From positions 58,304,758 through 58,368,757 of the forward strand of contig OX485805.1 of the NCBI GenBank assembly GCA_950295325.1: a DNA stretch of 64,000 nucleotides, in the 5' to 3' direction. How positions within the stretch are numbered: position 1 is the stretch's first letter; every line of letters starts with the position of its first letter. This DNA comes from Polytrichum commune (taxonomy: Eukaryota > Streptophyta > Polytrichopsida > Polytrichales > Polytrichaceae). Position numbers and translations under genes: made by a program. Of the stretch, positions 1-58,761 are shown piece after piece. Under the pieces are notes generated by a model, which was not told the DNA's origin, did no database searches, and saw only the letters and a program-made list of their open reading frames with translations.

Positions 1-620
1 TTTGGGTCGAGCGACCCAATCCTTGTCATGGTCAACTACAACCGCCGAAGCTGGGGAAGGGGTTTGGGTCGACCGACCCAAACTTTCACAGGGTAAACCC
101 ACCCACACTCAGAAGGGGTTTAGGTCGGTCGACCCAAACTTTCACAGGGTAAGTCCACCCACACCGGGAAAGGGTTTGGGTCGGTCGACCCAAACTTTCA
201 CAGTGTAAATCCACCCACACTGGGATGAGGTTTGGGTCGCTCGACCCAAACATTACATATGATGGGATAAGGTTCCTACTCTGTCCGTCCAAACCTTCTG
301 AGTACCTTGGGTAAGGGCCATTAACAATTCGTTCACGATGTGCGAAAAAGTTTGGGTCGACCGACCCAAATCTTCTAAAAGGTTTTACGATAAACGCCCA
401 CAGTGGGGTAGGGGTTTGGGTCGACCGACCCAAACCTCACAAGGGTCAGAGTAGACCCCCCCCCCCAACACTAGTGAAGGGGTTTGGGTCGACCGACCCA
501 AACCTCACAAGGGTCAGAGTAGACTCCCCCCAACACTAGTGAAGGGGTTTGGGTCGACCGACCCAAACCTCACAAGGGTGAGACTAGAACCCGCCCACAC
601 TAGTGTCGACCGACGTATAA
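1..620. repeat. Palindrome cluster (TTTGGGTCG-NN-CGACCCAAA type) of element A
   Basis: About nine copies of the 20-bp palindrome occur here at roughly 55-70 bp spacing (for example 63-82 and near 176, 231, 351, 416, 483 and 549). The two central bases vary (AG, AC, GT, CT). The spacers are themselves repeated (CACAAGGGT, CCCACACT). The cluster corresponds to 54470-54970 in B, which lies just upstream of B's transposase-like gene, so these probably sit in the 5' intron of A's off-window copy. Open frames here (VWVDRPK, FGSTDPN, LGRSTQT) are only the palindrome read in different frames. Confidence 0.85.
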
Positions 621-824
621 TGCGGCGTATAATGCAGCGGATATTGAGAGGTGTGTGGAATTTCAGCTCATTGCAAAGTTCACTGCGGACTTGCATGCTG
701 TGGATAGGTCCTCATGAACAGCAGCGTGAACGAACCTCGAAGTACAGCTCCGACTAAGAGTTCTCTCTACGAATTCAGGTGTGGGAGAAGAGCAAAAAGA
801 AACCAACTTTTGGGGGGTGCGCCC

Positions 825-831
825 CTTTATA
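825..831 (-). promoter_or_regulatory. Candidate TATA box for the off-window minus-strand gene
   Basis: TATAAAG on the minus strand lies in a block of roughly 200 bp (780-1000) that matches the inverted sequence 54100-54300 upstream of B's transposase-like gene, where TATAAAG is also present (54249-54255). Conservation in two copies supports a promoter. The transcription start is not visible. Confidence 0.45.
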
Positions 832-1241
832 CTATCCACCTCCACTTGCCCGACTTCCTCATTGGATGCCTTTCCCGCCTTGTTATTTCAAACGTCCTGA
901 CAGAATTCCCCGTTTTCTGTTTATTGTAGAAAATGCGCATCTTTCAATGCCCCTCTCATACCCCAGCCGTCATATGATTTAGTGTATGATATTTAATCTT
1001 TTTTTGGTTTTGTGTGTATATGACATACGACATTGGGAGGAAGGGTGGCGGCCACATTAATTTTTTCAAGTGTCACAACGGTATATTTTAACCAATATGT
1101 ATACCCAACCACAACTCCATTCAATGCTTTCAAGTGCAAACCTATTTCGGTGGGGTTGGGGCCATTTGGAGGCTGCAATTATGAGAGAGTTTCCAAGGCT
1201 TGAGGCCATTGTCATGATGAATAAAATTATTTATTTGTCTC

Positions 1242-1274
1242 CCCTAAACCCTAAACCCTAAACCCTAAACCCTA
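1242..1274 (+). repeat. Interstitial telomere-like tract (CCCTAAA)n
   Basis: There are about four tandem CCCTAAA units. Shorter tracts occur at about 1688-1705, 1884-1892, 2448-2478 and 4264-4275. All lie between the two divergent genes of the element, as do the tracts in B (32128-32172) and C (38877-38903). Confidence 0.9.
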
Positions 1275-1325
1275 GAACATTGCTCTATTATCTCGCATGG
1301 AAGTGTGGCAATGATAAACGTATGT

Positions 1326-1380
1326 AACACTATATTCGTTAAATTCAGACTTTCTCTAGTCTCAAATTAATATATGGATC
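1326..1380 (+). repeat. Terminal-inverted-repeat sequence inside element A
   Basis: AACACTATATTCGTTAA starts at 1326 and is followed by a short AGACT...AGTCT hairpin. The roughly 55 bp match the complement of B's right end (58707-58761) except near the hairpin start. Similarity fades after 1380, and no transposase-like gene follows where one would be expected. It is probably a remnant of a nested insertion or a rearranged end. The preceding 85 bp (telomere-like tract plus CTCGCATGGAAGTGTGGCAA) are repeated at 1685-1755. Confidence 0.7.
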
Positions 1381-1856
1381 AAACAAAAACTTCTACAATG
1401 TCACCCTAATGCATCATATACATATTAAATGATGATATTGATCTACTTTAATTCAAACATTACGGTATGGCATTAACCAATATGTAGACAAAAGAAGTCT
1501 AAACATTGTGTAACGCCTTATGGTAAGAGTCACTAAATACAATAGTTAAAGTGGTTATGAAGATCCTCGCAAGGGGAATTATTAATTTTGAAATCAAATT
1601 ATGTCATGACAAAGTTCATTTATTGTTCCAAATCTGAATTTGCAACAATGCAAGTGACAAGAGCTTTTATATATAATATGTTGTCATCCCTAAACCCTAA
1701 ACCCTACAATATTGTCCTCTTCTCTCGCATGCAAGTGTGGCAATGACGAATGTATGTGGACGTCGATAAGGGGATACTAACTACCAATGTCGCTTTTTAG
1801 TTCAATATTTCCATGCTAATTGAATCCATCCTCAAGTTCACTTCAAGCTTACTAAT

Positions 1857-2700
1857 GTGTGTGAACAAAACATCCAAAGTTGAACCCTAAACCCTTATAA
1901 CATCCACAACATGAAATTATACGTATTGACTAAACCATACACCAATTAGTATATCATGTTTAGACGTTCCAAATAACATATTCACATGATCAAGATTGTG
2001 GTCACTATAACCTTCCTATTAGACTCTTCTTAATATATAAACAACATTTCTTATATCTTTCTCCATTATCTAATATACGTGGAGGGAACAATGAACAACA
2101 ACACGATTGCTTGCATGGCTTCATTTGATGTTGTGCTTAACCGATTTACGTTTATATCACATTCCATATATTAAATACATCACGAACCATAGTTTATTGG
2201 CGACTATGTGATTCATCAAAGGGAGCAAAACATCCAAAGTTAGACCCCTAAGTCCTAATAACATCCACAACATGAAATGCTATTTGAATAAACACAAGAC
2301 CAATTAGTATATCACGTTTAAACGTCCCAAATAACAACTTAACATACTCAACATCATCTTTACTATAACCTTCCTATAAGACTCTTCTCACCAGTAAGTC
2401 AATGTTGTACGTTAATATTGGATAGATTAATATGTTATAACCATGACTCCTAAACCCTAAACCCTAAACCCTAAACCCCAAATCTTGTAGTTGTTCAGTG
2501 CTACCTCCATATACAAACAACATCAAGTTTGTCTTGCGCCATTATCTAATATACTTGGAGCGAACCTTCAATAACAACATGATTGCTTGAAGGGCTTCAT
2601 ATGATGTTGTGGTTCTCCGATTTGCTTTTATATCACATTCCAAGTACATATATCACGATCCATGGTTTATTGGCGACTATGTGATTCATCAAAGTGAATA
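1857..2700. repeat. Diverged direct duplication in the intergenic region of A
   Basis: Two units, about 1857-2220 and 2221-2700, share blocks such as AACATCCACAACATGAAAT, ACCAATTAGTATATCA and GGCGACTATGTGATTCATCA. Part of it (about 2060-2130) matches the complement of B at about 31400-31500, so this is element sequence. I see no coding capacity in 1381-3177. Confidence 0.7.
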
Positions 2701-3177
2701 TCTAGGGGATACCCTATAAAACTTGAGCATGTTAGCATTTTGAAATAAAGATCATGCAATTCCAAACCCTCACAATATGCACTTGGGGAAGGTATTCATT
2801 TAGGCTCCACATTCAAATATCCTCAATTTCCGAATTTCATGTTGGGGGGTGGGGATTGTCTTTTTTATTCATTGCATATTGTGTGAGTTGTTGGCATCAA
2901 TGGTAAAGTCTATTGTATTTGGCACGTAATTGTATTTTTTTTATAACGTGCTCAAACAAACGAGAAACCAATGACTTCAACTTGTTTGGAAAATTTAGTT
3001 AATGGTGTCATGTAAGTAGGAATTAAGTATTAGTGTTAGCATAAAGTTGCGTTGTAAAGATGTATTAGTTGTATAAATGGTTTAGTTTTTTAGAATACCT
3101 CATTTGATGTATACCTTAGGCTACTCCAAAGTCTATTCAAAATTGTACTACCCGCTAAGGGTTTACTCCTTAGAGGG

Positions 3178-4078
3178 ATGGGAGTTAGGGTTCCCCGTAA
3201 CCCTATTCCCGTTGCTGCCCTAATCACGTTGGCACCCTATTCGCGCGGTTCGGGGCCAATTCCCGAGGGTAACAAAACCCCAGCCGCCAAGCATTCTCCT
3301 CCTTTCTCTCTCTCTCTCCCGCCAACCTTTCGCTCCGCGCCTCTTGTGGAAGCGCCGCCTCTCCTGAAGCGCCGTGGCGATTCAGGGTGGCGTTTTTCTT
3401 TACATTCCTTCTCCACCCTTTTTTCTTCTCCTTCCCTCCCTTCTCTTGCTGTAGCGGGAGATTGCACTAGTGTTGCAATATATAGCATTGTTGAAGTGTT
3501 TTCCAGATTGTTGAAGGGTTTTCCAACATTCTGTGTGAGCTTTAGGCAGTGCTTGCGAGAGTTCGAAGTGTGGATGAGTGCATGTGAGTGCTTGTGAGTG
3601 CATGTGAGTGCTTGTGAGTGCATGTGAGGGCTTGTGAGTACATGTGAGTGCTTGTGAGTGCATGTGAGTGCTTGTGAGTGCATGTGAGGGCTTGTGAGTG
3701 CATGTGAGTGCTTATGAGTGCATGTGAGTGCTTGTGAGTGCTTGTCAGATTAGGAAGTTCTATAAGAGATACAAAAGTGATACAAAAGTGCTTTCAGAGA
3801 TTTAGTTATTGTTTTGAGAGATTCAGTTGTTGTTTTAACAGACTCAGTTGTTGTTTGAGAGTTACAATTGTTGTTTGAGTGATTCTGAAGAGACTCAGGA
3901 GTTCTGTGAGAGATTGTGGGTTTATTGAGAGATTCAAGAAAGGTTTAAAATCTTTGGTAGTTGTTTGCGAGTTTTAGCGTGTCTGCGAATAGGAATTCAC
4001 TGATTCTGTCTTAGTCGAAGAAGAGCACTTGTTCAAAAGCAACCATCTGCAACGACTACAACAGAAACCCTCAACAAA
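3178..4078 (+). promoter_or_regulatory. GC-rich promoter and 5' untranslated exon of gene 2, element A
   Basis: AT-rich DNA gives way to GC-rich DNA near 3180. It contains a GCGCCGCC / GAAGCGCC block resembling the inverted B sequence at 30240-30660. A pyrimidine-rich stretch and a minisatellite follow. AAG followed by GTATTG at about 4079 fits a splice donor, giving a 5'-UTR intron that ends at TTTGCAG directly before the ATG at 4590. The transcription start cannot be placed. Confidence 0.5.
3583..3745. repeat. 20-bp minisatellite GAGTGCATGTGAGTGCTTGT
   Basis: About eight tandem, slightly varied copies lie in the presumed 5'-UTR exon of gene 2. They create an artefactual minus-strand frame rich in CTHKHSHALT. 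No counterpart is obvious in B or C. Confidence 0.9.
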
Positions 4079-4128
4079 GGTATTGTTTTTCAAGGGGTTC
4101 CAATATGTGTTTCTTAATTGACAGTGTT

Positions 4129-4164
4129 GTAGCATACACAATGCATAAGCATTGTATATGCTAC
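4129..4164 (+). other. Conserved hairpin in the 5'-UTR intron, element A
   Basis: Arms GTAGCATACACAATGC and GCATTGTATATGCTAC flank an ATAA loop, with one G-U type mismatch. The matching intron of B has a hairpin at 29715-29752 with a compensated base change (GTAGC/GCTAC against GCAGC/GCTGC). C has a different hairpin at 43200-43228 at the same relative place. Confidence 0.75.
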
Positions 4165-4199
4165 ATGCCAAGTTTAAAAAACTATATTAAAATAGAACA

Positions 4200-4562
4200 G
4201 TTTGGGGAGACGACCCAAACACAGCCTATAGTTTGGGTCGATCGACCCAAACAGCACGATGTGCTTTGGGTCCCTAAACCCTAAACACAGCCTATAGTTT
4301 GGGTCGATCGACCCAAAGCACATCCTGCTGTTTGGGTCGGTCGACCCAAACGCAACCTCTACAGTATAAACTTTTCAAGAAATCCTTGATGACAATATAA
4401 AACGCAAATCCACCCAAGATAACGAAATACCATATAAACATATAAATGAAGTTCTAAAATAACAAGACACAATCCAAAAATAAATGCGTTGATGCATTAC
4501 ATTTCCCTTCCATCACGTGACATCTAATCTATTGTGAAGAAGTTTGGGTCGAACGACCGAAA
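4200..4562. repeat. Palindrome copies in the 5'-UTR intron of gene 2, element A
   Basis: Five copies or near-copies of TTTGGGTCG-NN-CGACCCAAA occur around 4201, 4232, 4297, 4331 and 4542. The first and last are imperfect. B has the equivalent set at 27986-29620 and C at 42600-43300. Confidence 0.85.
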
Positions 4563-4589
4563 CTAACATCCTTGCTTCTTTCTTTGCAG

Positions 4590-7500
4590 ATGGCCCCAAA
4601 GAAAAGACCAGGAGAAAGGTGGTTCATGCTTGCGCCAGACGTGTTATGGCAGGAGCACGAAACACCTCAGGATGACTCATATGTCCCTAAGGACGGGCTT
4701 GTCCTCGCCTGGTCAATTCAAGTAGTAAAAACCTCCATTTACAAACTGATATTCGTTGTCAAAGTAGGGACCGTGGAAAAACATACCTGGGCGACTCTTA
4801 CAGGATGGGAGGTGGCGTCGGTCCAGTCTTTTGGAGACTACGCAGACGTCATCCTTGAGAACAACGCTGTGCAGAATGCTCATATGTTTCTGCACCAGTT
4901 CGTCGAACCCTTTGACGCTACATATGCAAGGGAGTCATGTGTCGAACCTGATGTAATCAAACCCGAGACAATTTTCATCGATGCCAGTACATCGAATACA
5001 AAGGTCTCGAGCCGGTTTACGAAACTAAAGCATGCAATCAGCGTGCTCAACAAAGCCCTGCAGAGCAAAACGAAGTCTCAGCAAGCCGTCAGGCGGAAGG
5101 TACCCACTGAGGAAGGTGCAGGGTCGTCAAGGCCTCAATCAGTGAGGATGCCGCAACCAGTCCCGGCTAGCTCAAGACGAACCACTCCATCGGAGACACC
5201 GGCGGATAGCCAGACTCCTACGCCTTCTGGCAGCCGCCAAACAACTCCCTCCAAGAGGGCGAGAGAGTCATCTGTGATGACTGACGAGCCAGTCTCTCCA
5301 GAATTGCGCATGCCGAAGCCAGGGCAGGAAGTGGATGCAGGGGAGATCCAAAAAATCGTGAACAATTTCACGACCAAGTGCTCCCATTGCTTTTTCATGG
5401 GCAGGGATTTCAAATTCGACGTGAACATCAGTCAGTGTCATCTCGCGCCACCAGAAAAATGTGTCCGGGCAAAAGAAGACGCCTACGTCGATTGGATAAT
5501 CGCGCAGATCGTTAGCGAACAATTCAAAGACGACAGGCAAACCATTGTAGTGATGCCTCAGGGACTGAAGAAAATGCCTACCCCTGAAATGTGGGCGACA
5601 ATTCAAAAAGGCGATTTTTGGCTCATAGACGGCCAACACAGCGTTGAGGCTTCCAAGAAAATCCAACTAATGACTGAGTGGGACGATCCCAACCATCAGA
5701 AGGAGAAGTTGAAGGTGTGGAAGGCACTGGTGGTGTGGTCTGACGATGAGACCCGACTGAGCGACATCTCCCGTTACTTTAACATGGGGAATAAGAAAAG
5801 GGCCTACCAAGCTTCCTGGATAAGGAATATCATGGCCTCGCGGGAGGTGTGGGAGTTCTATGGTAGGCCTCCCAAGGAGAGGGAGAATGCAAAGGACAAG
5901 AATCCCAAGTGGGAGGTGAGTATTGTTTGGGTCGATCGACCCAAACTCCTTTTGCAGCTTTATTTGTGTACTTTGGGTCGCTCGACCCAAACTCTTGTTG
6001 CAGTCATGTTTTTTAGTTTGGGTCGCTCGACCCAAACTCTTGTTGCAGTCAGGTTTTTTTTAGTTTGGGTCGATCGACCCAAACTCTTGTTGCAGTCATA
6101 TTTTTTTTAGTTTGGGTCGATCGACCCAAACTCTTGTTGCAGTCATGTTTTTTTAGTTTGGGTCGATCGACCCAAACTCTTGGTGCAGACACTGGTCATG
6201 ATATGTTTTGGAAATCACATGTTCATATCTAACATGCATTCAAATGATTGTTTTGATCACATGCAGGACTTCAAATACCAAATGATAAATAAATTCTCCT
6301 CCATTGATAATGCTAGTCACAAACAGAAGAAATACAACGAGCTTAGAGGGGAGATTTATTTAATAACAGCATCCGACTCCGTTTGGATGAAGTGGAAGAG
6401 TGTATTTGAGAAGCATGAGACGGGTGAGCTCATCGACCCGGACACAGGAATTTTCTTCAACCAAACCACGCGCTTCAAACAAATGAAGCCTCTCGTGAGA
6501 GAGTTCTTTAGAACTCTTCAAGGCCTTTCCGAGACGGAGATGGAGAAGGCGGCGGCGCACATCTTGCATTTCACGCCCACGGCGAAAAGGTGCTGGGTGC
6601 ACCCGAAGATTGTCTTCTTAAAGCCCAAATCCTTCGTCCCTTCATGCTACACCATGAAGGAATGGACGGAGAATAGGAAAAAGAAGACAACTATAGTGCA
6701 GGAGCTGCATAAATTGCTGCCGGAGAGGAATATTGTCGTGGACGGCGAGGTTCATGAGGCTAACTGGAGAGCATTCAAAGCTGAATATAAGTTCACCAGT
6801 GCCTCCATGGCGGCTCTAATAAGGGAAGCGGGGGATGACTTCTTGCGGGCCAAGATGGTGAAGGGTGGGAAGAACCGGGCGCTTCCGGATCACACAGCGC
6901 GTGCGTTCTCGAACTTCATCAAGGAGAAGAAGATTGTCCAGTTTGAAGGGGACGCTTACTTCAACCTTGTCACCTTCGAGCCTTTGAAAATTCAGGGCTG
7001 GCCAGGTCAAGACGCCAGAATGGCGATAAGGACGAAAGCAGGGGGGCGTTTCCCATTCGGAATGATAGATTTCAGGAACATTCCTGGAAGCTCATTTGAG
7101 GGTACGATGAGCACACTGTTTTACGACCCCTTCCTATCTAAGTTCGTCGATTATGCGAGTCCTAAGTTCAGGGAGGTTGATGTCTGGCTATGGATAGTCG
7201 AGGATAGGAGGGCGGAGCAGGTGTACGACCTTGTCCGGAAATTGCAGCCGGAGTATGCAGTCTCCAAGTCTCACTACATCGCCGCACCGGTGGAGGGGGC
7301 CTACACGTCGTTGAAGGACAAGAAGACCAAGGTCGTCAACGTCCTGTGTTTGTACTTCGTGTACAAAGCGGAGTTGTTGAAGGTGCCGAACCACCCTATA
7401 TCCCGGATGGACAAGCTCTTCCAAGTTCCAGATGGGTTAGGTTCCAGCAAATGCCTATACGACGAGGCCAAATACGCAAACTATCCTGCAGATGAGCTGC

Positions 7501-10500
7501 GGATGGAATTCTACATGCGGATGCTGAGGACGCTGACTAGGAGAGGGGACTGTATCTTCAACGTGTTCGGGGGCTCGAAACCCCTCTATGCTGCCATGGT
7601 AAGTTACATTCTTTAGCTCTTGCGCAGTTTGGGTCGGTCGACCCAAACTAGTCTCTCTCTTGGTTTGGGTCGGTCGACCCAAACTAGATATTGTTTTTGG
7701 TCTTGTTTTTTGTCTTGCAATTTCTAATTTCTATATAACTTGGATTGTGTAGATGTTGGGGTTGAACATCTACTCGTACATAGAGGATAGCGATCTGCAA
7801 TTTTACAGGACGCAGAAATCGCTGGCAAAGAAGATGGATATCCTCGATTGGATCCCGGGAAGCTACGTGGACGAGGTTGTTGAGGGGGGTGAGAACCCTC
7901 TTGATTGGGCGAGGCGGATCAACCCGGAAGAAATTGCGATGAGGGCAACAACCCAATTACCCGAACCTCTAGTCGGGTTGCATCCGGGCAATCCGTCCCG
8001 TACAGGAGGTGGAGAGGTGGAAGAGGAGGAGGAAGAAGAAGAACACGGAGAGGAGGAAAAGGAGGGGGATGTGGAGGAAGGGGCAACGGGATTCACGCAA
8101 GAATCTGAAGCCCCTCAGAGGAAGAAGGCTATGCGTGTGGCAACCCCGCAGAGTAAGATGATGCCCGTCCTTACGGTGGACGATGCGAGGGATATGTACT
8201 CCAGGGACACGACTGCCACGTTCCGGGAGAGGAGGAAGTTAAAGGGAAAGAAGCTCTATGGCGATTACGCATTGGAGGAGACCATTGCCATTAGCAGCGA
8301 GGACGACGACGACATTGAGCTCGCCAAACGGCTCAGATCGGATCCCCCCTCCCCGACAGCGTTCGCAGGCATGGTTAGGGTGAAACCCGAAGTCCTCACT
8401 GTGGACGAAGCCAACGAGAAGATGCGTAGAGACGAGGAGCAGCGCGTCCGCCTGCAGAGGGCTGCCGCGGAAGAACCCTCCGTGCGGAACGAGGTCGCAG
8501 AGCTGAGGGCTCTCCTCTTGGAACAAGAAAGACTAAGGGCGATGGCCCAACCTCCATCCAGCGCCGACTTGATATCGCAAGTCATACAAGGGATGTGGGC
8601 GCAAGGATTGGTGGTGGCTCCATCCAGCTCGTTTCCGCACTTGCCCCCCGGTTTCCCAGCGCAGAGCATCCCTCAGCACCCAGTGTCGCAAGGGTCATTC
8701 AGCTTCCAGCACATGATGCGGCCGCCCCATGTTCCGTACGCGCCGGTCCAACAAGTGGACGATCCCAACATCTGGCGCGTATCTGGAGCCTCCTCCCTGT
8801 TGGGCCCTCCACCACTACGACCCCCCATAGTGATGGCGCCCCCTCACCAGCCGGACGATCCCAGGATGTTTGGGTCGACCGACCCAAACCCACCCTCGAC
8901 TGTAGTGCCCCAAGGCGCCTCCCCCGATGCAGGACAGTTTGGGTCGCCCGACCCAAACCCCGGAGCAGCTCAGTCCTCCCTTGACAAACTTGTGTCTCAA
9001 AGAGACACAACCATGTTAGATGTTGAAGGCCTCCAAGGGCCTGGTGATACCTCTAATCCTAACCAAATCGATGAACCCATGCATGATGCATATGCGGAGA
9101 TTGGTTTAGGACAAGGGCCTGATGCTCAACCTTTGCAGGACAAGGTCCCTAACGTAGGCGGAGAAGGCGGTGGCGAGAGAGGTGGGGCACCGGGGACGGT
9201 GGAGGCATCCACATCGTCGAGACATGACCAGGGCGAGGTAACACACTGAGCCCTCCCAGTTTGGGTCGACCGACCCAAACCTCCTTGGTCATTGTCTTGT
9301 TGGCGTGGTCTTGTCCCCCCTAGCTATGAGGAACTACACCCCCCCGACGCACCCAACAACGTGCTCCCCCCGCGATCCCCTTCGTCTCACCTCACTCGAC
9401 TACGCTCAACCTTGGCGGCGCGCAACCAATTTTGTAGATGTACAATTAGGATAGTGTGAATGCCCTCGTTCACCGCCCCCCCCCCCTCAAATTGTACATA
9501 GAGATTTGTAACAATAAAATTATTATTTTTGGCGCCCATATGTTAGCATCCGTGTCCCAATGTATGTTGTTCCCCTTGTATGTTTTTGTTGCCACCAATG
9601 GTCCAATTCTTCTTGTGTTTGCACAAAATTTCCGTTCTGCTTGAATTAAACATAGCATAACATAGTCCTCGCCGCCTTCTCTCGCTCGTCGCCGCAGGGA
9701 TCGGAGCATAGCGTCGTGGCTCCCCACCGGTCCTCCCCGAGGAGCGTGGAGGACAGCGCGGTGGTCCCCCCGATTTTGCCCTCCCCGTCTCCGCCGCCCA
9801 AGACACGGTTCCTGGTGCTAGACCTCAACGGGGTCCTCGTCCAGTGCGTGCACTGTCCCAAGGTCCCCACGGTGCCTTTCTGCAAGCCCGAGGACGCCAA
9901 CTACGATGGTCCCCCCGCGTACATCAAAAGCAAGCTAGTGTACCTCCGCCCGTGGCTTCGGCGCTTCCTGCAGGTCGCCCTATCCAAATGGTGGGTGATC
10001 GTGTGGAGCTCCATGAAGTCCGAGAACACCCAGGCCGTCGTGGAGTTCATCTTCAAGGGACTCCAACCCCCGTGCTTGGTCCTAGGACAGGATTCTTGTA
10101 AAACATTGTACACCCCCGAGGGCAGGGTTGTGAAGAAGCCCAACAACCCTGTCGTAAACCAATTTCTTAAGGTCTTGAAGCCAGTCGTATGGGACCAACG
10201 TCCGACCATGGTCGGCTGTCCCTACGACGTTCGCCCCACCCGTGACAACACGTTGATGGTGGACGACAGCGCTTCCAAGAACATTTTGAACCCGACCTCG
10301 AACTTCATAGTTTGCCCCACGTGGACGGTCGAGAAGGTCCGAGACTGCTTTTTGTTAGACCTACTTAAGAACATTCAAACGCTCGTGGGGAGCGGACTAC
10401 CCGTGCCCCGGTTCCTTAGTTGTAATCCGATAGGCGAAAGATACATGGATCCGAAGGACTATATGTACAGAGAGTTGTACGCTCACGCGAAATATAATAA

Positions 10501-10510
10501 ACTCATTTGA
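4590..10510 (+). CDS. Gene 2 of element A: ParB-like, methyltransferase-like and FCP1-like multidomain protein (intact)
   Basis: Exons 4590-5915, 6267-7598, 7753-9237 and 9698-10510 are all open and join in phase 0 at GT-AG sites, giving about 1651 residues. The start ATG directly follows a TTTGCAG acceptor, as in B and C. Residues 1-442 end in a ParB/sulfiredoxin-like domain with D347-G-Q-H350-S. Residues 443-890 resemble a beta-class or MT-A70 amino-methyltransferase: IDFRNIPG may stand where [DN]PP[YFW] is expected, VWLWIVED resembles the following strand, and VFGGSKPLYAAM (875-886) resembles motif I. Residues about 900-1380 are an acidic, coiled and proline-rich linker carrying two translated palindromes. 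Residues 1382-1651 are an FCP1/NIF-type HAD domain (DLNGV at 1423, DDS at 1570). Intron 3 retention would end the protein three codons later (VTH). Joining rests on sequence logic, not cDNA; the HAD exon could be a separate gene. Confidence 0.75.
5916..6266 (+). repeat. Intron 1 of gene 2 (A) with six palindromes
   Basis: The donor GAG|GTGAGT and acceptor ATGCAG|GAC bound the intron. Six copies of TTTGGGTCG-NN-CGACCCAAA are spaced about 45 bp apart with the spacer CTCTTGTTGCAGTCA repeated. B intron 1 (26313-26628) has five copies with a different spacer (TGTATGAAGAAAC). C intron 1 (44655-44802) has one copy of the C-type palindrome. Confidence 0.85.
7599..7752 (+). repeat. Intron 2 of gene 2 (A) with two palindromes
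   Basis: GTAAGT and TGTGTAG bound a 154-bp intron that splits the methyltransferase-like motif I from the following MLGLN strand. Two palindromes start near 7627 and 7664. B intron 2 (24795-24980) also has two, and C intron 2 (48992-49225) has three of its own type. Confidence 0.85.
9238..9697 (+). other. Intron 3 of gene 2 (A)
   Basis: The donor GAG|GTAACA lies just before an in-frame stop, and the acceptor GCCGCAG|GGATCGGAGCATAGCGTCG is identical in B. One palindrome (near 9259) follows the donor. The rest is pyrimidine-rich and AT-rich with no coding signal. The same donor (GAG|GTAA) is kept in all three elements. Confidence 0.7.
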
Positions 10511-10629
10511 GATACTACATGGTGTGCCATTGTGTGTGATATAGTATGCCTCAATTGTATATCGATTTTCTCATGCTCCCCCCCTGCCCCCCTCCCCTTG
10601 GGTTTTGTTTGTTTTAATTTTCCCATCAG

Positions 10630-11449
10630 CGTTTGGAGCCCTCGATTGACATCGTCAGCGAATCAAACTTGGGGAGCTTCTTCTACGAGACCGTCTACGA
10701 TGCCGCGTCCACCATCGACTACTCCAAGGAGCCTATTGACGCCGGCGTCGTCGATAGCCCCCCACCCAAGCAAATCTTCCGGCCATCTCCGTCCCCGTCG
10801 CCGCTCAAGGGCATAAATCGCAAATGCGTCCGGACGTCCCCGTCTCGGCCCGGCGGCAGTAGTACACCTCAACGGCGGCTGCGGATGGACGCTCGGCCTA
10901 CGAAGAGTGGCACCCTTCCTATTCCTTTGCGGGACGCATTGCCCCTCCTCGCCGACTCCGACGGGAACGCCCCCGGTGACAAGGTGAACCCCCCCCCCCC
11001 CCAAAACATGGTTAACCGCGCATTACAATCATCCGGCACTTAAAAAATGAACGTGTGACACGTTTGGGTCTTCCTCCCTAAACTAACACGTGTGTTCTTG
11101 CATTCACGCGTTGTAGGTTGCTCCCACCCGTAGACCTATGCGGGCTAGTGCGTCCGTCGAGTTGGAGCGTTTCTACTCCATGACCAGAAATGCAAGACAG
11201 TCCACTTCATCGTATTCGAATTCTTCGTCGTATAATTCGGGCGGCCGACGGAATCCAAAATGTGTTATTGATGGCGGTCACCCCAAGAATGGCTATAGTC
11301 GCGGGGCGGAGATTTTCAGGAATGTTGAAGCAATGCGAGCAAAAGAAGCCGCAGCAAAAGAAAAAGAGGCAAAAGAAAAAGAGGCAAAAGAAAAAAAAGC
11401 AAAAGAAAATGAAGCAAAAGAAAAAGAGGTAGTCTCCGAGGCTAGATAG
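10630..11449 (+). CDS. Downstream exons 5-6 of element A (alternative 3' end of gene 2, or separate cistron)
   Basis: Exon 5 (10630-10983) opens after TTTTCCCATCAG and reads RLEPSIDIVSESNLG; it has no ATG near its start. It holds YDAASTIDYSK, GVVDSPPPK and a PSPSPSPLK stretch rich in possible phosphorylation sites. Exon 6 (11117-11449) ends in about 45 residues of AKEKEAKEKE helix. The 5-6 splice is phase 0. Exon 5 is also entered in phase 0, so skipping the HAD exon 4 would keep frame and give about 1609 residues. B (21856-21051) and C (51840-52724) keep the same arrangement. The function is unknown. Confidence 0.6.
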
Positions 11450-11539
11450 GTCATAGTAGGCGTAGGGTTGTGAGCCATAGGCAAGAACATTTTGGGTCGC
11501 ACTATCCAATGGATGTGTGGTGTTAGCATGCTATGCATT

Positions 11540-11987
11540 TTACATGCCATAATTTGTATGTTTTTTTTGCAATAATATAAGTGTCACATGATTTCCCCTT
11601 CAATATGGTCTAAGGTTTGGATTGCCCTACCTAAACCATCACAAATATGAGTTTGGAATATTTTGTATGTTATATTATATTGGTTCACATATTTCCCCTT
11701 CAATATGATCTATGGTTTGGATTGCGCTACCTAAACCATATTCATACAAGTTTTTGTGCGATAATATAAATGTTTTAAGATTTCCCCTTCAACTTGGCCT
11801 AAGGTTTGGATTGCCCACACTAAACAATCCCAAATATGAGTTATTAATGGGGTTCTTGTTCTAAACACCCGCTTCAAAGTGTTCGCATCTTACAACTTTC
11901 TCCAATATGTGTTCCATTTATCCTTGTTCTTATTTATGTGATTGTCTCAAAATGCCCAAAAAGTCTCAATTTAACGAATATAGTGTT
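11540..11987. repeat. Right terminal region of element A: subterminal repeats and inverted repeat
   Basis: Three diverged units of about 85-110 bp carry TTTCCCCTTCAA and GGTTTGGATTGCCC with the inverted TAAACCAT. The terminal repeat occupies about 11950-11987 and holds GTCTCAAAATGCCCAAAAAG before the conserved 17 bp. The inverted sequence at 20503-20940 in B is nearly the same. A half palindrome (TTTGGGTCGCAC) lies at about 11491. Confidence 0.8.
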
Positions 11988-13262
11988 ATCATCTCAGGAT
12001 TCTCATCGTGAGTTTCATAATGAGACTTCACCTGCTTTAAGAACATAGGAGAATGTATAGGATCTGCAATGGAAAGTTGTTTCTTTAGTTCCAAATGGGA
12101 AGTCAATCCTACCCTCTCCACAACTTTGGAAACAAATTCACCCACTGCACTTGAAGTCCAATGTGTAGAATCAGGGTATTTCTCATAAAATTTCCTTTGA
12201 GCAGTAGCAGTAACATCTCCCAACTCTTGCTATACCAAGGAAAAAACATATAAGAGTATGATAAATCACACATAATAAAAATAAGATGTAATAAAACATA
12301 TTGTTATAGAATTCAAAATTTTAAAAATATATATATACAAGAAAAAAAAAACGTGAAAAACTAATACTTTAGAAAAATAACCTAATATAGAAATCCATTA
12401 AGAGCCTCAACAGTAAAAGGGAACCATGTTTTATATTTGGATTTTTATTTGGCATCAGCTGCAGTAAGATCTTCTTTAGAGACAATTTTTTTTAAATATG
12501 AAAGTGGTTGTCCAACAATGCTTTGAATGCGGCAAAACTTATGAACAAGATTCGTACAAACATGGAATTTTTAGTTCCTCATGACAAAATAAAACAACCA
12601 ATGATAAGCCACGGAAAAGAAATATACAATAAAAAAATAAACTTAAAAGAAAACCAAATGAACCGAACAAATAAAAAGAGAAGAATGAAGGAATTACCAT
12701 TTCATGTAAAGCTGCCAACATGGTTGCAATATCTCCCTTGACGTCCAAAAAAATACTTTCAACAACATAATGTCAAGCATGATCATGTATATGATCTCGA
12801 TTAATAATGGGTAACCATGTTTGCATACGGTGGTTTCCATCCCACATCATAAACATTTTGCGAGAAAAAACTTTGAGATCCTCATCTGTTTGCAATATTT
12901 TTTCAAAGGCATCATTTGTCCATACCCAATTTTCACTCCATGATTCAATGATATTATCGGTAACATCAATTGTTTTCTCCTCATTGTTTTCCAAGGCTAC
13001 GTAAAAAACCCCGTTGCCCTCTATATAACCACAAGCAACAAAATGTGTAGCCAGGTTCATAACGTTATTTTTCAAAAAAGACCTAACAACAGGCAATGCA
13101 ACCAATCGACATAATGGAATGTTGAATTTCAATTTTGCCCTTGGTTGATACCTCAACCGTTCAAGACGGGAAGATGTGTTGATAGTTTCTTTCTTAAAAA
13201 TGCATGCAATTGCAATTCCAATTGATCTTCAAAAAAATGTACAACTTCCATATCTAAATCAC
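11988..13262 (-). pseudogene. Decayed ParB/DGNHR-type gene truncated by element A
   Basis: Minus-strand exons read from right to left. The first runs about 13245-12774 with a frameshift near 13170; it contains LKFNIPLCRLVALP and WDGNHRMQTWLP. A short part after a second shift reads DVKGDIATMLAALHEM (about 12750-12690). Another at about 12540-12380 (VSKEDLTAADA) has one in-frame TAA. The last, 12219-11988 (GDVTATAQRKFYEKYPDSTHW), is cut at 11988 by element A. The pattern (F-[DN]-[VI] strand, then D-G-[QN]-H-[SR]) parallels exon 1 of gene 2, so I read it as a distant relative of the ParB-like domain. It is an inactive remnant. Confidence 0.55.
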
Positions 13263-20498: not shown

Positions 20499-20502
20499 AC
20501 AT
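20499..20502. repeat. Target-site duplication ACAT, left copy (element B)
   Basis: ACAT directly precedes the terminal repeat at 20503 and recurs directly after the other terminal repeat at 58762-58765. Confidence 0.85.
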
Positions 20503-20940: not shown

Positions 20941-21050
20941 ATACAAAGTATGGCATGTAAAATGCATAGCATGCTAACACCACACATACATTGGATAGTG
21001 CGACCCAAAATGATGTTGCCTATGGCCCAAAACCCTACGCCTACTATGGC

Positions 21051-28892: not shown

Positions 28893-28949
28893 CAAATCAT
28901 ATAGGCTTATGTCTGGGTTTAGTAACATTTATATATGGGGTTACTTTTC

Positions 28950-36760: not shown

Positions 36761-37029
36761 CAAAAGTCAGTGGTGTCCAAGACACACAGAGGTTTAGGGA
36801 ACCAAGATGTCCATGTGCCACGGACACGTATACCCAGGCCTGACGACTATGCATTTGAAGAGGTTAACATACGCGCTTCCTACTGTGTTTTATCAATGTC
36901 AAAATATTATACTATGACACATAGGGTGATGTAAGTTTAGGATTTAAGGATCTTATACCTCCATTGACCGTACAGTCTCAATGTAATATTCTACATGGCA
37001 CATGGTCGAAATTATGGCACAAGAGGTTT

Positions 37030-48991: not shown

Positions 48992-49225
48992 GTGAGTAGT
49001 TGTTTGTCTTTCAACCCACCTATCTTTGCATAGTTATTTTACGGACGCACGTCCGTAAAAACCCAGTATCAGGTGCATGTGAATTTTACGGCCGGGCGTC
49101 CGTAACATTGTCCAACTTTTGAGTGGTGGTTTTACGAACGCGCGTCCGTAGAATGTGTTGGCATCTGGCCTCATTTATATGTCATCACCACAATTGTTCC
49201 TATCTAATTTTCTTGTTTGGTGCAG
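48992..49225 (+). repeat. Intron 2 palindromes of element C
   Basis: Three C-type copies start near 49040 (centre CA), 49088 (decayed) and 49130. The intron splits the same codons as intron 2 of A and B. Confidence 0.85.
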
Positions 49226-50638
49226 ATGCTTGGATTGCAGGTGAATTCTTTTGTGGAGGATTCCGACTACGATGACGCCCATACTCACAGGGTTATTGCC
49301 TCCAAAATGGATATACAGGACATCATGGACGTCCTTACACCCCATCCTGCGGTGCCTCTTGCTTCTAGAGAAGAGGCAATGCCCGGAATGGAGACAGACC
49401 CTGAAGAGGACCAGGATCCCAGTTCCCCAAGAGCGCAGCCCTCCACACAGGAGCCTTTACACGGCCTTGTTCGGGACCCAATTAATCCAAGTGTGTTCCT
49501 GCTGGGAACAGACGACACGGATGCGCAAGAGGCACGCGTTAACTTCACTCCGATATGGGTCCCACATACCCCTGTTCTCTCACCTTTTGGGACTCCCACC
49601 TCTCGAGTTGGGTTTCCTTCAACTGCGGGTCCATCTCGTGCTGCAGGTGTTATTGCGGAGAAGGATGTGGACCTTGCGGCAGAAGGCGGATGCACGGCTT
49701 CATCTGGAGGGGGGTCTCAACATTCAGATCTACCCCCTATGGAGGGGAGGGATGTGCTGGAGTTGATATTGAGGCCTAATATCTCTCTATATCGTGAGAG
49801 TCGACGAAAGAGGAACAAGACACCATACAACGAATACCCTGAAGGCGCGGTCTTGGAGCTCTCCGATGAAGACGAGGATGAGATTAGGATCCACAATGCC
49901 ATCTCTGCCTTGCCTACCGAACCTGGCAAGGTGAAGAAAGAGCCGATGTCAGTGTCCGAATTGGACGAGAAGATGGAGAAGCGAATGAAGGAAGAGCTTG
50001 ACCAACGGCTTCGAGAAGCTAACGAGGAGCACGCCAAAAAGATGGCCGCCATCCAAGCTGAGATGGAGCAAGCTAGATTGGAGTCTGCTCGAAGGCACGC
50101 TGATCTCATGGCTCAAAATCAGCAGTTTTTGGCCCAGAGCCAACAATTCATGAGCTTGATGCAGAGCTTGCAGGCAAGGCCCCAAGTTGTATATGCAGCT
50201 CCCGAGGCGGGCATGTCGATGCCCACCACTCTCATGCGGCCTCCATCTAGTAGCCATGCTGTTTATATTCCCGAGCATGCTTATCCAGCTCCCACGTTGA
50301 TTGTCCCGCCCTCTCCCATTGTTGTCGCCACTCCAGAGCCCCCCTCTCTTCCAACAGGAGTGGAGGAGATACCGGCACGTGACACGGCGGGTGCCGCCGA
50401 GAGAGATGTCAATGAAGGCAACGCCCCCATCGGCGATGAAGATGTACATATGCGGGGCAGCCAAGACTCCACTGATGAGGATCAGCCTTACGTGGATACT
50501 CAAGGATCGCAAGCGGCTGGAGACACTTTGTTGGTGGTCGAAGATCTGGACAATTTTGCGGACGCGCGTCCGCATCCTGTGCCCATGACGGGGCCAGGTG
50601 AGGGAGGCACTGCTGGCGCGGACCTCGCCCCTGAAGAG

Positions 50639-50979
50639 GTAATCAACCTTTGAGCATGCCTCCCACGTTACGGACGCGCGTCCGAAACTTCCTTGTCTGC
50701 CTCCTTCGTGGCGTGTGTATATTATCGAGTTCAATCCTCGACTTCGCCCGGCGGGTGGATACAATTTTGTTAGCATAGATTCCATTAACTTCAACAGATA
50801 TTTTTTGCGACAATGTATATTATTCACCAAATGTGTATCACCAATTACATTAATACCAATTTTTCAACTGGATGGTTCGGATTATTTTTGGCCTTATAAT
50901 TCTTTTTTGAGTTCATCCATGCTTGTCAATTGGTTTTCTTGAGTAATACCATTTACCTAGATAGAATGTTCCATCACAG
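50639..50979 (+). other. Intron 3 of gene 2, element C
   Basis: The donor GAG|GTAATC and acceptor CATCACAG|GGTCCG bound it. One C-type palindrome (about 50668) follows the donor, as one B-type copy does in A and B. Retention gives a stop after four codons (VINL). Confidence 0.7.
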
Positions 50980-53000: not shown

Positions 53001-53033
53001 AACAAAAAGTCTCCAATTACCGAATATAGTGTT
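53001..53033 (+). repeat. Right terminal inverted repeat of element C
   Basis: AAAAAGTCTCCAATTACCGAATATAGTGTT ends at 53033. It differs from the left end by one extra or changed base in the core. ACTA follows at 53034-53037. Confidence 0.85.
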
Positions 53034-54464: not shown

Positions 54465-54975
54465 GGAATGTTTGGGTCGCTCGACCCAAACCCACCCCCT
54501 CTCACGGGCTGGGCCTGGATTAGCAGGCCCATCCTGTAACGAGGTTTGGGTCGCTCGACCCAAACACACCTCCATTGTGAGGTTTGGGGCGAGCGACCCA
54601 AACCCACCCCTGTCACGGGTTGGGCCTGGATTAGCAGGCCCATCCTGTCACGAGGTTTGGGTCGAGCGACCCAAACCCACCCCTATCAAGGGCTGGGTCT
54701 GGATTACCAGGCCCATCCTGTCACGAGGTTTGGGTCGAGCGACCCAAACCCACCCCTATCAAGGGCTGGGTCTGGATTACCAGGCCCATCCTGTCACGAG
54801 GTTTGGGTCGCTCGACCCAAACACACCTCCATTGTGAGGTTTGGGTCGAGCGACCCAAACCCACCTCCATTGTGAGGTTTGGGTCGAGCGACCCAAACCC
54901 ACCCCTATCACGGGTTGGGCCTGGATTAGCAGGCCCATCCTATCACGAGGTTTGGGTTGCTCGACCCAAACCCAC
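54465..54975. repeat. Palindrome cluster upstream of gene 1, element B
   Basis: Nine copies of TTTGGGTCG-NN-CGACCCAAA occur, with centres CT and AG and two with a changed arm base (TTTGGGGCG, TTTGGGTTG). Spacers alternate between a short CACCTCCATTGTGAGG and a longer GGCTGGG..GGCCCATCCTGTCACGAGG. This is a higher-order repeat. Confidence 0.9.
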
Positions 54976-55163
54976 CCTCATGCACACAATGGGGATGTGC
55001 ATAGATGGATCCTGAATAAACTGTTGTGCGCTCCATCTTTTTGGAACCCATCGATATAATATTCATACAACATGTGTTATGATAAGGTTTCTGTGTTTTT
55101 CTATTGGACCCTATAGCTTTTGTCAATTCTTTACAAGGTTCCATGTTCATGTGTGTAGGCAAA

Positions 55164-58100
55164 ATGGATGGGTATACTGGAAGAGGGTATTCGTCTGGAG
55201 AAGACATGGCCACTTGGCCATCTACATCTAAGGAAGAGCTAGACATTGTCGGGGAGGCTACTATGGATGAGAGTTCAGATGAAGAGCATTTCGATATACC
55301 TTCGCGTTCCGTACCGGACTGTCCCATTCCAGAGTGTGCCGTGCTTTCAAGAGCTTCATGGGTGAATTTGGATGTGTTACTTCTTAATGACAATGGGGTT
55401 GTTGTGGCGGAGGGTATCTGTCGTAACACCCATCCACAAGATTGCATTGATCAAAATCCGCTTGGCACCGAGGACGTTGGGATTGTCATATTGGAGTCAC
55501 TCGTTCCTTCTGAGGTGGATCCCACTCATAGGTTCTCCCTCCGCAGGTGGCCATTGAGGAATGTCATGACTGATGGAGTTAGCTTGCGTGAACATGAGCA
55601 ACGACACATGCAACTCGAAAAGGAAATGCAATCAAACATGCGGCCACGCAAGGGTCAAAGAAAGTACGGTACTGTGGCACGTCCTTCTCCATCTGCAACT
55701 GATTGTAAACGTCAAAGGCTGCTTGGGGAGGAGTCCATAAGAGAAGTTGCCACAAAGGATTGTTGTGTGCATTGTTGTTGCCAATTGTTTCCAAGGGATA
55801 AATTGAAGGCCATCCGTGAAGAAATGTGGCTTGGAGATTTTCGTCTAAGATCCACAAAAAAACTTGATGTCCATAGGGCAATACATGTGAATGGGACGGG
55901 TCGCAAGGTAATCACCATTGAAAGCATAGACGTGTGTTGTAAGGCATGGTACACCATTCACGGTGTGTCGAAGGCGGACTTCTATAGACAAGCTGCTTAT
56001 GCCAAGGAAGGCCGCCGGTCCCATCACCATGGGAACGTGGGTTTAAAGAAACCTAGGGAAACAACAAGGCAAGCAACGGCAACTCTAGCAACCATCATTG
56101 CCCCCCTTGTTGATGCAATGCCGCACAAAACACGCACACTCACAACCGGTGAAAAGGTTGTGGAGAAAGTTCTTCCCACAGGCACAAAATGGAAAGACAT
56201 ATTGTTGGACGTTAATGCAGTTGGCGAGAAGATTGGGTTGGAGCCAATTTCATTGTCAAAATTAAGTGCAATCAAGAAACAAAACTTTAGCGAATACATT
56301 ACAAAAATACGAGGGGACAAATTTGCCAGGTGCTCTAATTGCGAGAAGTTGAAGCGCCTCCGGGATGCACACACGATGGGTACCGAGTCATATGCAGCGC
56401 ATCAATTGAACTATTTCAAGCACGTAAACATGCAAGAGGCACACCGTAATGATTACTACACAAATAGAGCTTTGTCCATCTCCAGGCCCTTGGAGGTTCT
56501 TACGGTCATCCATGACAAAATGGACCATGCCAAAACAGCCTCCCCATGTTTTGCAAATCGAATCAAGGCCACGGATGGGTTTTTTAAGTTGCCTGTATCG
56601 GTTACAGGTGAACTTCGAAACAATGTCATGACATACCCTAAATGTTGTGGTTTTTTATTCCGTGATGTACTGGAGAACATGGATTCCTTCATAATGGTTT
56701 ATTCATACATAGATGCTAATCACGTTGGATTGGCATTGCAAGAATGATTGCACATGGACACGGTGATGTCAAGTTTGCTTATTATGCTCTTGATTTGTAT
56801 CCAGCGGATTCAAACCACACGATAGGATCATTTGCAAGGCTTTTACGTGATTTAGAGAAACCACCAGCCTATTCTTCAGGATTGTTATTTGAGAACACGG
56901 GTTCAACACCTTTATATGAAGCGGTGTTGGATGGAAAAGATGTATGCTTGCATTCGTTGCCCGAGCCACCCAATGAACCCGTGATTGCCAAGAAGTTGCC
57001 TCCAACTTTGCGTGTCCAATTGGACAATTGTGCCAAGGACAATAAAAACAGATATGTATTTGCATATTGGTCGTTGTTGGTTGCGAAAGGCATTTTCAAG
57101 GAGGTTTTTGTGTCCTTCCTATTGGTAGGCCACACGCACGATGATATTGATGCATCTTTTGGGCGGTGGAGCATGAAGTTGCGGGAGGAGGATTTTCCTA
57201 CAATCCCATTATTGATGAAGTCGTACATGGATTTGGAGAACGTTCCCGTCACCCCCCATATGATTGAGGAGGTGCCAGACTTCAAGGCATTTATAGAACC
57301 TTATATTCGAAGTGGAGCTCACCGATTGATCGGGCATACGAAGGCACAACAATTCCGGTTCTACATGCGTGACGATGGTGTCCCGGCCATGCAATACAAG
57401 TTGTTGTGCACGACACAAGACTGGAGCCCGCCGGAGGGTCTTCTTGTGTGGCGCGTGGATGCGGATGGGAAGACCATGTTACCGGATGGGGAGCCTAGCC
57501 CTTGTAAGCCAATAGCCATGAAGAATTTGGAGGATATTTTGAAAGGTATATCAGGCTTCATACAATATTGGGAGAGTTTGAAGATAGCGGATGTTGGCGG
57601 ATCATGTTGGCATCGTTATGGGAGTTGGATACATTATTGGACACGTGTTCGTGCCGCCTTGGTAGACCTCCACCAAGATAGCCCTCATACTTTGAGGCAT
57701 GGATTTTGGCCACAAACACGAGTCGATGTACAAGCTTCAGAGGCTAGTCTTTTGGGAAATGGAGAGGTTCGAGAGGAGTTTGATGTGGACGACCATTACG
57801 TGGGGCCTGCTAGTAGTCGTCCGCCACCATCTTTCCGCATTGCAGTGGATTGTCATGAAGGATATATGCTCATTTTGCGTCCTGGAGACGAGACATATGT
57901 GAAGCCAGTGTGGGTGGCAAGAGCTTTGTCCAAACCCAATTTTGTAACTTCCAGCCCTCATTTTCGACAAATACAAGTGGAGTACTACCGACCGACAGCA
58001 CGGAATGAAGATGTGATTCGGCATTATACAGGCTGGGATACAAACCCTAACTTTCGGTGGAAGGTGGATTCTGAGCACGGTCCATCTTGGGTAGATACAG

Positions 58101-58228
58101 ATTCCATATTCATAGCATGGAAACCACGGAAAAATCATAGTGGATCAGTGTCCATCCCTCAAAAGTACATAACTTTTGCAAAAGACAACCTTGCTCGGAT
58201 CGCAGAAGAAGCAACCCACGTTGAATGA
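55164..58228 (+). CDS. Gene 1 of element B: putative DDE/RNase-H-like transposase (DUF7869-like), frame uncertain at the exon junction
   Basis: Exon a 55164-56607 and exon b from about 56743 to 58228 match C closely (RFSLRRWPLRNVMTDG, KDCCVHCCCQLFPRDK, CSNCEKLKRLRDAH, QLDNCAKDNKNRYVF, VGHTHDDIDASFGRWS). The ATG follows TGTGTAG, an acceptor as in C. With donor ACAG|GTGAAC and acceptor TTGCAAG|AATG the junction is one base short compared with C, so either a base has been lost or splicing differs. An ATG at 56744 could start the second half alone. The protein would be about 975 residues. It is the likely mobilising enzyme of the A/B subfamily. Confidence 0.65.
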
Positions 58229-58761
58229 GAAGTTGGTAGGATTGTGTTAGCATGATTATAGTGTAAACAGTAATTCTACGAACATATATTACTCATATGT
58301 GTGCTCTTCAAAATTGGGGCAGAGTTTGGGTAGAACTTACGAATACTATATTGTTTTGGAGTTGGATGAATATCCATTTACTATATTTCAATACAAATGT
58401 GAAGTTCATTTTTTTATTAAGTTTGGGACTAAATTGTCCATTGAAAAAATATGCATTTATTACATGCACTTTGTATGTTGCAATGTCTATATTCTATGGA
58501 GCATGCTAATAATAGAAATCATTATATATATATTTTTGGGTGAAACTTGTTTGGAGTGCTCTACCCAATGTGTTTTTGTTGATGAAATTGGTGTTGAGTG
58601 CTCTACCATATGTGCTTATGTCCGCACATCATAGGTGTGGGATATTAGAACATTTAATATATTTGAGATTGTTGACAATATAGTTTCAGGCATCTTCATG
58701 TTGTTTGATCCATATATTAATTTGAGACTAGAGAAAGTCTCAATTTAACGAATATAGTGTT
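58229..58761 (+). repeat. Right terminal region of element B
   Basis: AT-rich 3' flank of gene 1 with a duplicated GAGTGCTCTACC word, ending in GAGACTAGAGAAAGTCTC and the core TTAACGAATATAGTGTT at 58761. ACAT follows. Confidence 0.85.

Follow-up and report, generated by a model that had tools for sequence, protein, structure and literature searches.

Among the described systems closest to the elements reported here is Sola1-1_Ec32, a giant transposon of Ectocarpus in which, according to excerpts of the original description, an accessory gene combining ParB-like and methyltransferase domains lies on the strand opposite the transposase (green and red algal cases are cited as well), and whose accessory protein is proposed to bind its own transposon (PMC12477816); the main text of that paper does not contain the word palindrome. 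A second system is that of the VANC proteins, for which the consulted parts of the literature report that VANC21 of Arabidopsis binds motifs that cluster in introns and other noncoding sequence, that a related VANC has other motifs (PMC5735166), and that the VANDAL transposase is much more conserved than VANC (PMC5735166, PMC10398659). Third, fungal DNA transposons with a TET/JBP dioxygenase carry an accessory gene which, in the excerpts available of that report, is thought to counter silencing; palindromes are mentioned in the paper only once, to state that the ends of a shared segment lack them (PMC12730594). Here we describe a 64,000-nucleotide stretch of DNA (the window) that is overlapped by three related DUF7869 DNA transposons, A, B/D and C, with C nested within B/D. 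Each element consists of two divergent genes, the DUF7869 transposase-like gene 1 and a gene 2, and carries numerous palindromes whose sequence differs between element classes. From the sequences, we consider it probable (roughly 0.6) that these palindromes are class-specific sites of a gene-2 accessory protein acting on its own element.

A first-pass annotation of the window had reported dozens of TTTGGGTCG-type sites in its elements A and B and TTTACGGACG-type sites in C, and this was confirmed by counting. Exact TTTGGGTCG-NN-CGACCCAAA sites numbered 43 (21 in A, 15 in B and 7 in D, the latter two being parts of B/D), seven exact TTTACGGACG-NN-CGTCCGTAAA sites were present in element C, and with up to two mismatches there were 54 class-A and 19 class-C sites, compared to none of either in 100 dinucleotide shuffles. 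The B and D of that annotation are one element spanning 20,503-58,761 with matching ACAT flanks. The sites occupy the region upstream of gene 1, the 5' intron and introns 1-3 of gene 2, and its coding exon 3; they flank the divergent promoters and run along gene 2, away from the element ends, with tandem spacings in the arrays of, for example, 38-111, 40, 45-47 and 97 bases. The further claim that all copies carry sites at the same places stood for the homologous introns and exon 3, with the qualifications that the exon-3 and intron-3 sites of C are imperfect and that gene 1 of A is outside the window, having been located in the adjoining stretch to its left (L003).

To the window we added 46 stretches taken from ParB-exon and DUF7869 match lists, or adjoining such loci, plus the left neighbor of the window, and a consensus-free palindrome finder was run on the window and on L001-L038. 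Nine classes were found, each comprising two arms around two bases and giving sites 18-24 bases long, with the arms TTTGGGTCG (A), TTTACGGACG (C), TTTACGAACG (F), CCCACGGGTG (E), CCCACGGGCG (E'), AACTTCCTCTCG (G1), AGGTTCCTCTCG (G2), AACTTCCACTCG (G3, from one locus) and GGGTGAGGCA (X). Exact sites were present in 38 of 41 stretches (A, B, C and D of the window and 37 loci, equivalent to about 33 elements as some stretches share an element), and each of these stretches carried a single class; in L006, L007 and L016 exact sites of any class were not found. The X-like arrays of L006 are imperfect, and asymmetric sites are numerous in G2 and X. As a separate observation, long arrays with units of about 59 bases and imperfect X-type palindromes occur near more distant DUF7869 genes at L004 2801-3394 and L006 3062-5063. 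Palindromes were located upstream of gene 1 in all six classes for which gene 1 was sampled (A, C, F, E, E' and X).

Genome-wide, over 408 Mb in 64 contigs, exact sites numbered 9,731 for A and 1,310 for C (20-base forms for these two), 3,737 for F, 819 for E and 208 for E', with the reversed-pattern control giving zero for each of the five classes. Sites combining a C arm with an F arm amounted to 60 (34 + 26) vs. 5,047 pure sites of either class, and those combining E' and E arms to 36 (15 + 21) vs. the 208 and 819 pure sites. The rarity of mixed-arm sites indicates that the two arms usually change together, in agreement with the earlier proposal that the sequence is replaced in concert. Sister classes differ by a transition in each arm, GCG/GTG in E'/E and GGACG/GAACG in C/F; a T that replaces a methylated C would retain the methyl group in the DNA groove. 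With respect to location, five of the six clusters formed by the 50 class-C sites listed (all on contig C1) lie within about 10 kb of a listed ParB exon, and the sixth, near 25.98 Mb, had none among the ParB exons listed nearby, for which 122 of 989 candidates were scored. Additionally, among the 29 E' sites listed on C1, 12 surround a ParB exon at 33.09 Mb and 9 are no farther than about 35 kb from the ParB matches located near 57.30 Mb.

Gene 1 and gene 2 differ in how far they have diverged between classes. Gene 1 of element C matches PF25273 (DUF7869) above the cut-off (E 5.9e-39), as does every row listed in the genome scan with this family (150 of 1,490 candidates scored). Gene 2 runs from a ParB-like exon through a methyltransferase-like exon and an acidic exon to a NIF phosphatase-like part, and we infer from the sequence that these exons make up one protein. 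Intron borders (GT..AG) agree among A, C and F, in all of which intron 1 comes after a tryptophan codon plus one codon and intron 2 ends directly 5' of M-L-G-L; the 5' intron ends at CAG|ATG in A and C. Between A and C, identity is 62-65% for gene 1 vs. 35% and 40% for gene-2 exons 1 and 2; the corresponding values are 74-82% vs. 46% and 54% between C and F, and 91% (part b only) vs. 74% and 62% between E and E', in a comparison for which tblastn values stand in at exon 1 of B/D, at part a of gene 1 in E', and at the NIF part of both A and B/D.

Palindrome class was also compared with a 28-row IQ-TREE phylogeny of the ParB-like region. The nine classes require eight changes on this tree, which is the minimum, vs. 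a mean of 18.4 with shuffled labels, among which eight was reached in 0 of 200 trials; class X fills 25% of the tree columns and near-copies inflate the shuffle test. Tree neighbors (C-F, E-E' and G1-G2-G3) also have similar palindromes. E' is not a single clade (L018, L021), which fits its being an older state of E. At the loci examined, the palindromes track the ParB-like subfamily, with eight changes for nine classes, as had been expected from the window. In lists covering some of the copies, inspection by eye revealed no element whose gene 1 and gene 2 belonged to different classes.

These comparisons also bear on which protein reads the palindromes. CACTA-type elements carry subterminal repeats, and the palindromes might be internal counterparts of these, read by the gene-1 transposase and unrelated to gene 2. 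Gene 1 too differs between classes, and palindromes stand upstream of it wherever it was sampled, both of which would suit a transposase site. If the transposase read the palindromes, its terminal-repeat ends might be expected to change as well, and instead the terminal-repeat core, AACACTATATTCG, is common to A, C and F despite their different palindromes. An exact core was present at the right end of A (11975-11987), at the left (20503-20515) and right ends of B/D, at both ends of C (32614-32626 and 53021-53033), and also in the class-F stretch L001 and the class-C stretch L002. Furthermore, the sites are internal, the last of them stopping 2.7 kb short of the right end in A and 2.3 kb short of it in C, and many lie within gene-2 introns. 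We therefore regard a transposase site as rather unlikely; gene 2 is the better candidate for the reader because there is less change in the transposase and in the terminal-repeat core.

Structures were predicted for the first two exons of gene 2. The model of exon 1 (438 residues, alignment A1 of 15 rows, mean pLDDT 55) places residues 271-400, with pLDDT 57-83 per ten-residue block, among ParB/Noc folds; the best structural match was Noc 7ng0 (Z 10.1, 97 residues, 2.2 A), and the top 21 rows of the fold search were ParB, Noc, KorB, PadC, sulfiredoxin and SbnI, i.e., the ParB/Srx fold. The CTP-binding motif of ParB is of the GERR type. This motif is absent from gene 2, where (D/N)GQH(S/T) takes its place throughout A1 apart from one of 15 rows with VGQHS. 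ParB proteins read their palindrome through a helix-turn-helix; in gene 2, the ParB domain is succeeded by a helical part, and for this part the fold search listed no fold. The exon 2 model (473 residues, alignment A3 of 11 rows, mean pLDDT 61.5) matched beta-class DNA methyltransferases (N6-adenine, N4-cytosine) at residues 250-472, with M.BceJIV 8urk as the best match (Z 9.5, 169 residues, 3.8 A, 8% identity) and a best Foldseek E of 2.3e-3. Searches by sequence gave no convincing Pfam match for exon 1 or exon 2, and no convincing match for gene 2 in the PDB. Weak rows for gene 2, among them GHBP, Nckap1 and DUF6551, were not used, and the N-terminal beta domain of exon 1, for which only PH-like folds at Z of about 3 were returned, was left unnamed. 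In the NIF phosphatase-like part, DLNGV or DVNGI (in A at 9821-9835) stands in A, B/D, C, E and E' (C, L017 and L018 included) where we would expect the second aspartate of the DxDxT/V motif of NIF phosphatases, which would make this another enzyme-like domain of gene 2 whose catalytic motif is altered.

That the gene-2 protein is a working methyltransferase, marking the palindromes with 6mA or 4mC, would accord with the predicted fold of residues 250-472, and the same has been proposed for related algal transposon proteins, according to the excerpts consulted (PMC12477816). In place of D/NPPY, exon 2 has D-x-R-x-x-P in 11 of 11 rows of A3, with D292, R294 and P297 invariant, and class X has DCRNGP at what looks like the same place; in addition, no methyltransferase family matched in Pfam up to E 1. 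The catalytic motif of DNA methyltransferases is D/NPPY (D/N-P-P-Y/W), and on these grounds we judge an active enzyme to be improbable. The analogy to ParB-parS or to a methylase and its target, which the first-pass annotation had drawn, is accordingly retained for the resemblance to the ParB fold, whereas the replacement of GERR by (D/N)GQH qualifies it and that of D/NPPY weakens its methylase-target part. Its choice of the ParB-like/methyltransferase-like protein as the candidate reader agrees with both predicted folds and with the tracking of class.

Conservation of the sites was examined by aligning the gene-2 regions of A and B/D, which are of the same class and have diverged, as a footprint comparison. 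In noncoding sequence, palindrome arms were identical at 180 of 215 bases (84%) vs. 635 of 1,105 (57%) for other bases, and palindrome centers at 10 of 24. In exon 3, identity was 36/36 for arms and 2/4 for centers, with other exon bases at 3,793/4,964. Ten of 14 A sites (eight noncoding and two in exon 3) face a B/D palindrome and, conditional on such facing, show no arm-base differences; the four without a facing palindrome comprise three in the 5' intron and one of the six in intron 1. The exon-3 palindromes are read as FGSTDPN in A, FADARPH in C and HGRSPVG in E', and these different peptides indicate that it is the DNA and not the peptide that is kept.

Selfish or neutral satellites, spread by tandem duplication and conversion within each lineage, would likewise yield concerted change, since many sites form tandem arrays, which spread variants in concert, and solitary sites do exist outside gene-bearing copies. 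Against this, where sites stand singly or in pairs (introns 2 and 3, exon 3), their arms are preserved in both A and B/D amid diverged neighbors, mixed-arm sites are rare, and A, C and F carry sites in the same introns, so that we give a satellite origin little credence. Least probable of all is a function at the RNA level, with hairpins in the introns influencing splicing or giving rise to small RNAs: many sites are intronic and each would fold, but the exact sequence is kept between A and B/D beyond what pairing asks for, and mirrored (compensated) pairs are infrequent, 18 in eight classes (11 in C, 5 in G2, 2 in E and 0 in A, F, E', G1 and X) vs. 344 uncompensated mismatched bases (A 16, F 45, E' 22, G1 10, X 107, E 25, G2 84, C 35), which speaks against a hairpin.

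Several observations weigh against reading the palindromes as class-specific sites of the gene-2 protein. The class consensus sequences came from the same loci that were later counted, such that the independent result there is the absence of a second class only. Support for the tree is low (2 of 25 inner branches starred, 15 open), and, because genes and sites are inherited together on one element, any gene of that element would segregate along with its sites, so that the match between tree and class does not single out gene 2. Element C has a few mixed or F-like sites (42883, 43282 and 36521). The two-base center, with seven strand-merged dinucleotide types among the 43 exact class-A sites, is not free in C, where it was CG or CA in 22 of 22 exact sites (element C of the window, L002, L036 and L037), nor in E and E', where it is mostly AA. 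Of the 29 E' sites listed for C1, eight stand alone, without a listed ParB match in their vicinity; at two of these eight (C1:28021842-28024655 and C1:47962457-47965410), two E sites lie about 3 kb from the E' site. Such solitary and mixed-class sites lie perhaps in small non-autonomous copies, the two mixed loci maybe belonging to a family that bears both classes. Both structure models are weak overall and warrant modest confidence. Finally, when alignment columns distinguishing E' from E were used to look for a DNA-reading domain within the gene-2 protein, their density was highest in the helical part of exon 2 (18/193) and not in the ParB domain (4/187), compared to 12/203 in the methyltransferase-like part, 5/147 in the N-terminal part and 5/111 in the linker, a distribution too weak to be more than a hint.

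With these points weighed, we still favor the gene-2 protein as the palindrome reader, which we infer would bind as a dimer. Each lineage would then encode a transposase (gene 1) and an accessory protein with ParB-like, helical, methyltransferase-like and phosphatase-like parts, the latter reading, as a dimer, a lineage-private palindrome of 18-24 bases, dozens of which flank the divergent promoters and occupy the introns. Binding would mark the element as its own, keeping transcription on or silencing off and leaving other elements untouched, as VANC does on VANDAL, and a shift in the specificity of the protein would be followed by replacement of the whole set of sites. That binding leads to anti-silencing or activation of the element is, by this analogy, a tentative proposal to which we would give somewhat less than an even chance. 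An unlikely but more far-reaching version is that the gene-2 protein is a eukaryotic ParB-like clamp, which loads at its private palindromes like ParB at parS, spreads, and shields kilobases from silencing, with the dead methyltransferase domain acting as the sequence reader; if so, no fewer than nine such systems, orthogonal to one another, would coexist in a single genome.

The coordinates of the elements, genes and palindromes are collected in Table 1. Element A extends past the left window edge to a left terminal repeat at L003:6045, whose core has one mismatch; it is flanked on either side by ATCA, and the target-site duplications at A, B/D and C are all of 4 bases.

Table 1. Positions of transposons, genes and palindromes in the 64,000-nucleotide window.
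Feature	Position	Strand	Remarks
Element A, in-window part	1-11987	+	TIR (terminal inverted repeat) core scan; runs past left window edge
Element B/D	20503-58761	- (strand of gene 2)	TIR core scan; class A palindromes; ACAT flanks; split by element C
Element C	32614-53033	+	TIR core scan; nested in B/D; ACTA flanks; TTTACGGACG palindromes
B/D right terminal repeat	58735-58761		TIR core scan
A palindrome array upstream of gene 1	1-567		9 sites, 7 exact
A palindromes, gene-2 5' intron	4232-4562		3 exact, 1 with one mismatch
A gene 2 exon 1	4590-5915	+	ParB-like domain containing DGQHS, with N-terminal beta domain and charged linker before it
A palindromes, gene-2 intron 1	5926-6176		6 exact
A gene 2 exon 2	6267-7598	+	Helical and DNA-methyltransferase-like parts, no D/NPPY; start placed by comparison with F
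A palindromes, gene-2 intron 2	7628-7683		2 exact
A gene 2 exon 3	7753-9237	+	Acidic, low complexity
A palindromes, coding exon 3	8869-8957		2 exact; peptides FGSTDPN, FGSPDPN
A palindrome, intron 3	9260-9279		Exact; putative donor GAG|GTAACA
A gene 2 NIF phosphatase-like frame	9656-10510	+	PF03031, E 2.3e-12; stop at end; frame coordinates
B/D palindromes, intron 3 and coding exon 3	23255-23675		Intron 3 at 23255; exon 3 at 23587, 23656
B/D palindromes, intron 2	24895-24950		2 sites
B/D palindromes, intron 1	26425-26604		5 sites, 40-base period
B/D palindromes, gene-2 5' region	27988-29620		10 sites, 5 exact
B/D palindrome array upstream of gene 1	54471-54970		7 exact, 2 with one mismatch
B/D gene 1, DUF7869 transposase-like	55173-58228	+	Match at 56987-57412; start approximate
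C gene 1, DUF7869 transposase-like	33271-36445	-	PF25273; two overlapping frames
C palindrome array upstream of gene 1	36643-37667		
C palindromes, gene-2 5' intron	42605-43303		
C gene 2 exon 1, ParB-like domain	43361-44651	+	Stop just 5' of 43665
C palindrome, intron 1	44673-44694		Exact
C palindromes, intron 2	49038-49152		1 exact, 2 with 2 mismatches
C imperfect palindromes	50555-50688		50555 in coding exon 3 (4 mismatches); 50667 just past exon-3 frame / intron 3 (3 mismatches)

Additional features of the window and its host were recorded. Downstream (3') of gene 2, A and B/D are 91-95% identical (10587-11989 vs. 20501-21899), compared to about 77-82% for the remainder of gene 2, a pattern that may reflect a recent conversion or exchange between the two elements; this near-identical stretch includes a lysine/glutamate-rich coding-like part. 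Inside element A there are a solitary left-type terminal repeat and telomere-like CCCTAAACCC runs (1326-1386, 1256-2470), and 71 bases at 1316-1386 are 96% like the right end of B/D; the solitary repeat is perhaps a fragment of another insertion. Between A and B/D, a 410-residue frame (15082-16314) ends in a CxC..H arrangement, which we take to resemble a SWIM-type finger, and had no Pfam match up to E 1. The genome has LEAFY-family matches, with NGLDYLFDLYEQ as the DNA-binding part in L047; the aspartate in it is, we presume, of the moss type, and we take the host to be a moss.

In the open-access literature searched, we found no report of class-specific palindromes in such transposons, nothing linking DUF7869 with transposons, nothing on transposon-encoded anti-silencing in moss or on a Polytrichum genome, and, among the papers listed, nothing relevant to giant or palindromic transposons of mosses. 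Within that literature, the kind of protein is already known, and the palindromes, their swap between classes and the moss DUF7869 setting appear to be new. If the gene-2 protein reads these sites, they would supply targets for accessory proteins whose function in print is a proposal only, would make co-evolution of protein and site over dozens of sites testable with nine related protein-site pairs in one genome, and would offer orthogonal DNA-binding modules with sites of 18-24 bases.

As in Sola1-1_Ec32, per the excerpts of its description, the moss elements are giant DNA transposons with ParB-like and methyltransferase-type domains in a gene divergent from the transposase (PMC12477816). They are unlike it in having a DUF7869 gene 1, a replaced methyltransferase motif, acidic and NIF phosphatase-like parts, and class-specific palindromes; the accessory proteins were compared at the level of domain descriptions. 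The fungal TET/JBP transposons, as far as the consulted passages go, share an accessory gene proposed to act against silencing, whereas that gene belongs to another enzyme family than the moss gene 2, and ParB is not found in the main text of the paper (PMC12730594). Bacterial ParB-parS and Noc-NBS resemble the moss system in the predicted fold of the ParB-like domain and in long palindromic sites in many copies; unlike ParB-parS, the moss protein has (D/N)GQH for GERR, is continued by a methyltransferase-like domain, and resides in a plant transposon. VANDAL elements use a MULE transposase, and neither of the VANC domains DUF1985 and DUF287 was listed when the gene-2 exons were scanned with Pfam (limits of E 1, 0.5 and 1). 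In the excerpts consulted, VANC targets are motifs of 8-9 bases in one orientation (PMC5735166), whereas the moss sites are long palindromes. What the two systems have in common, according to those same excerpts, is an accessory protein and short targets that diverge between related elements, the targets being noncoding and often in tandem, together with a transposase that is better conserved than the accessory protein (PMC5735166, PMC10398659), and the moss elements would thus represent a second, unrelated example of the VANC principle.

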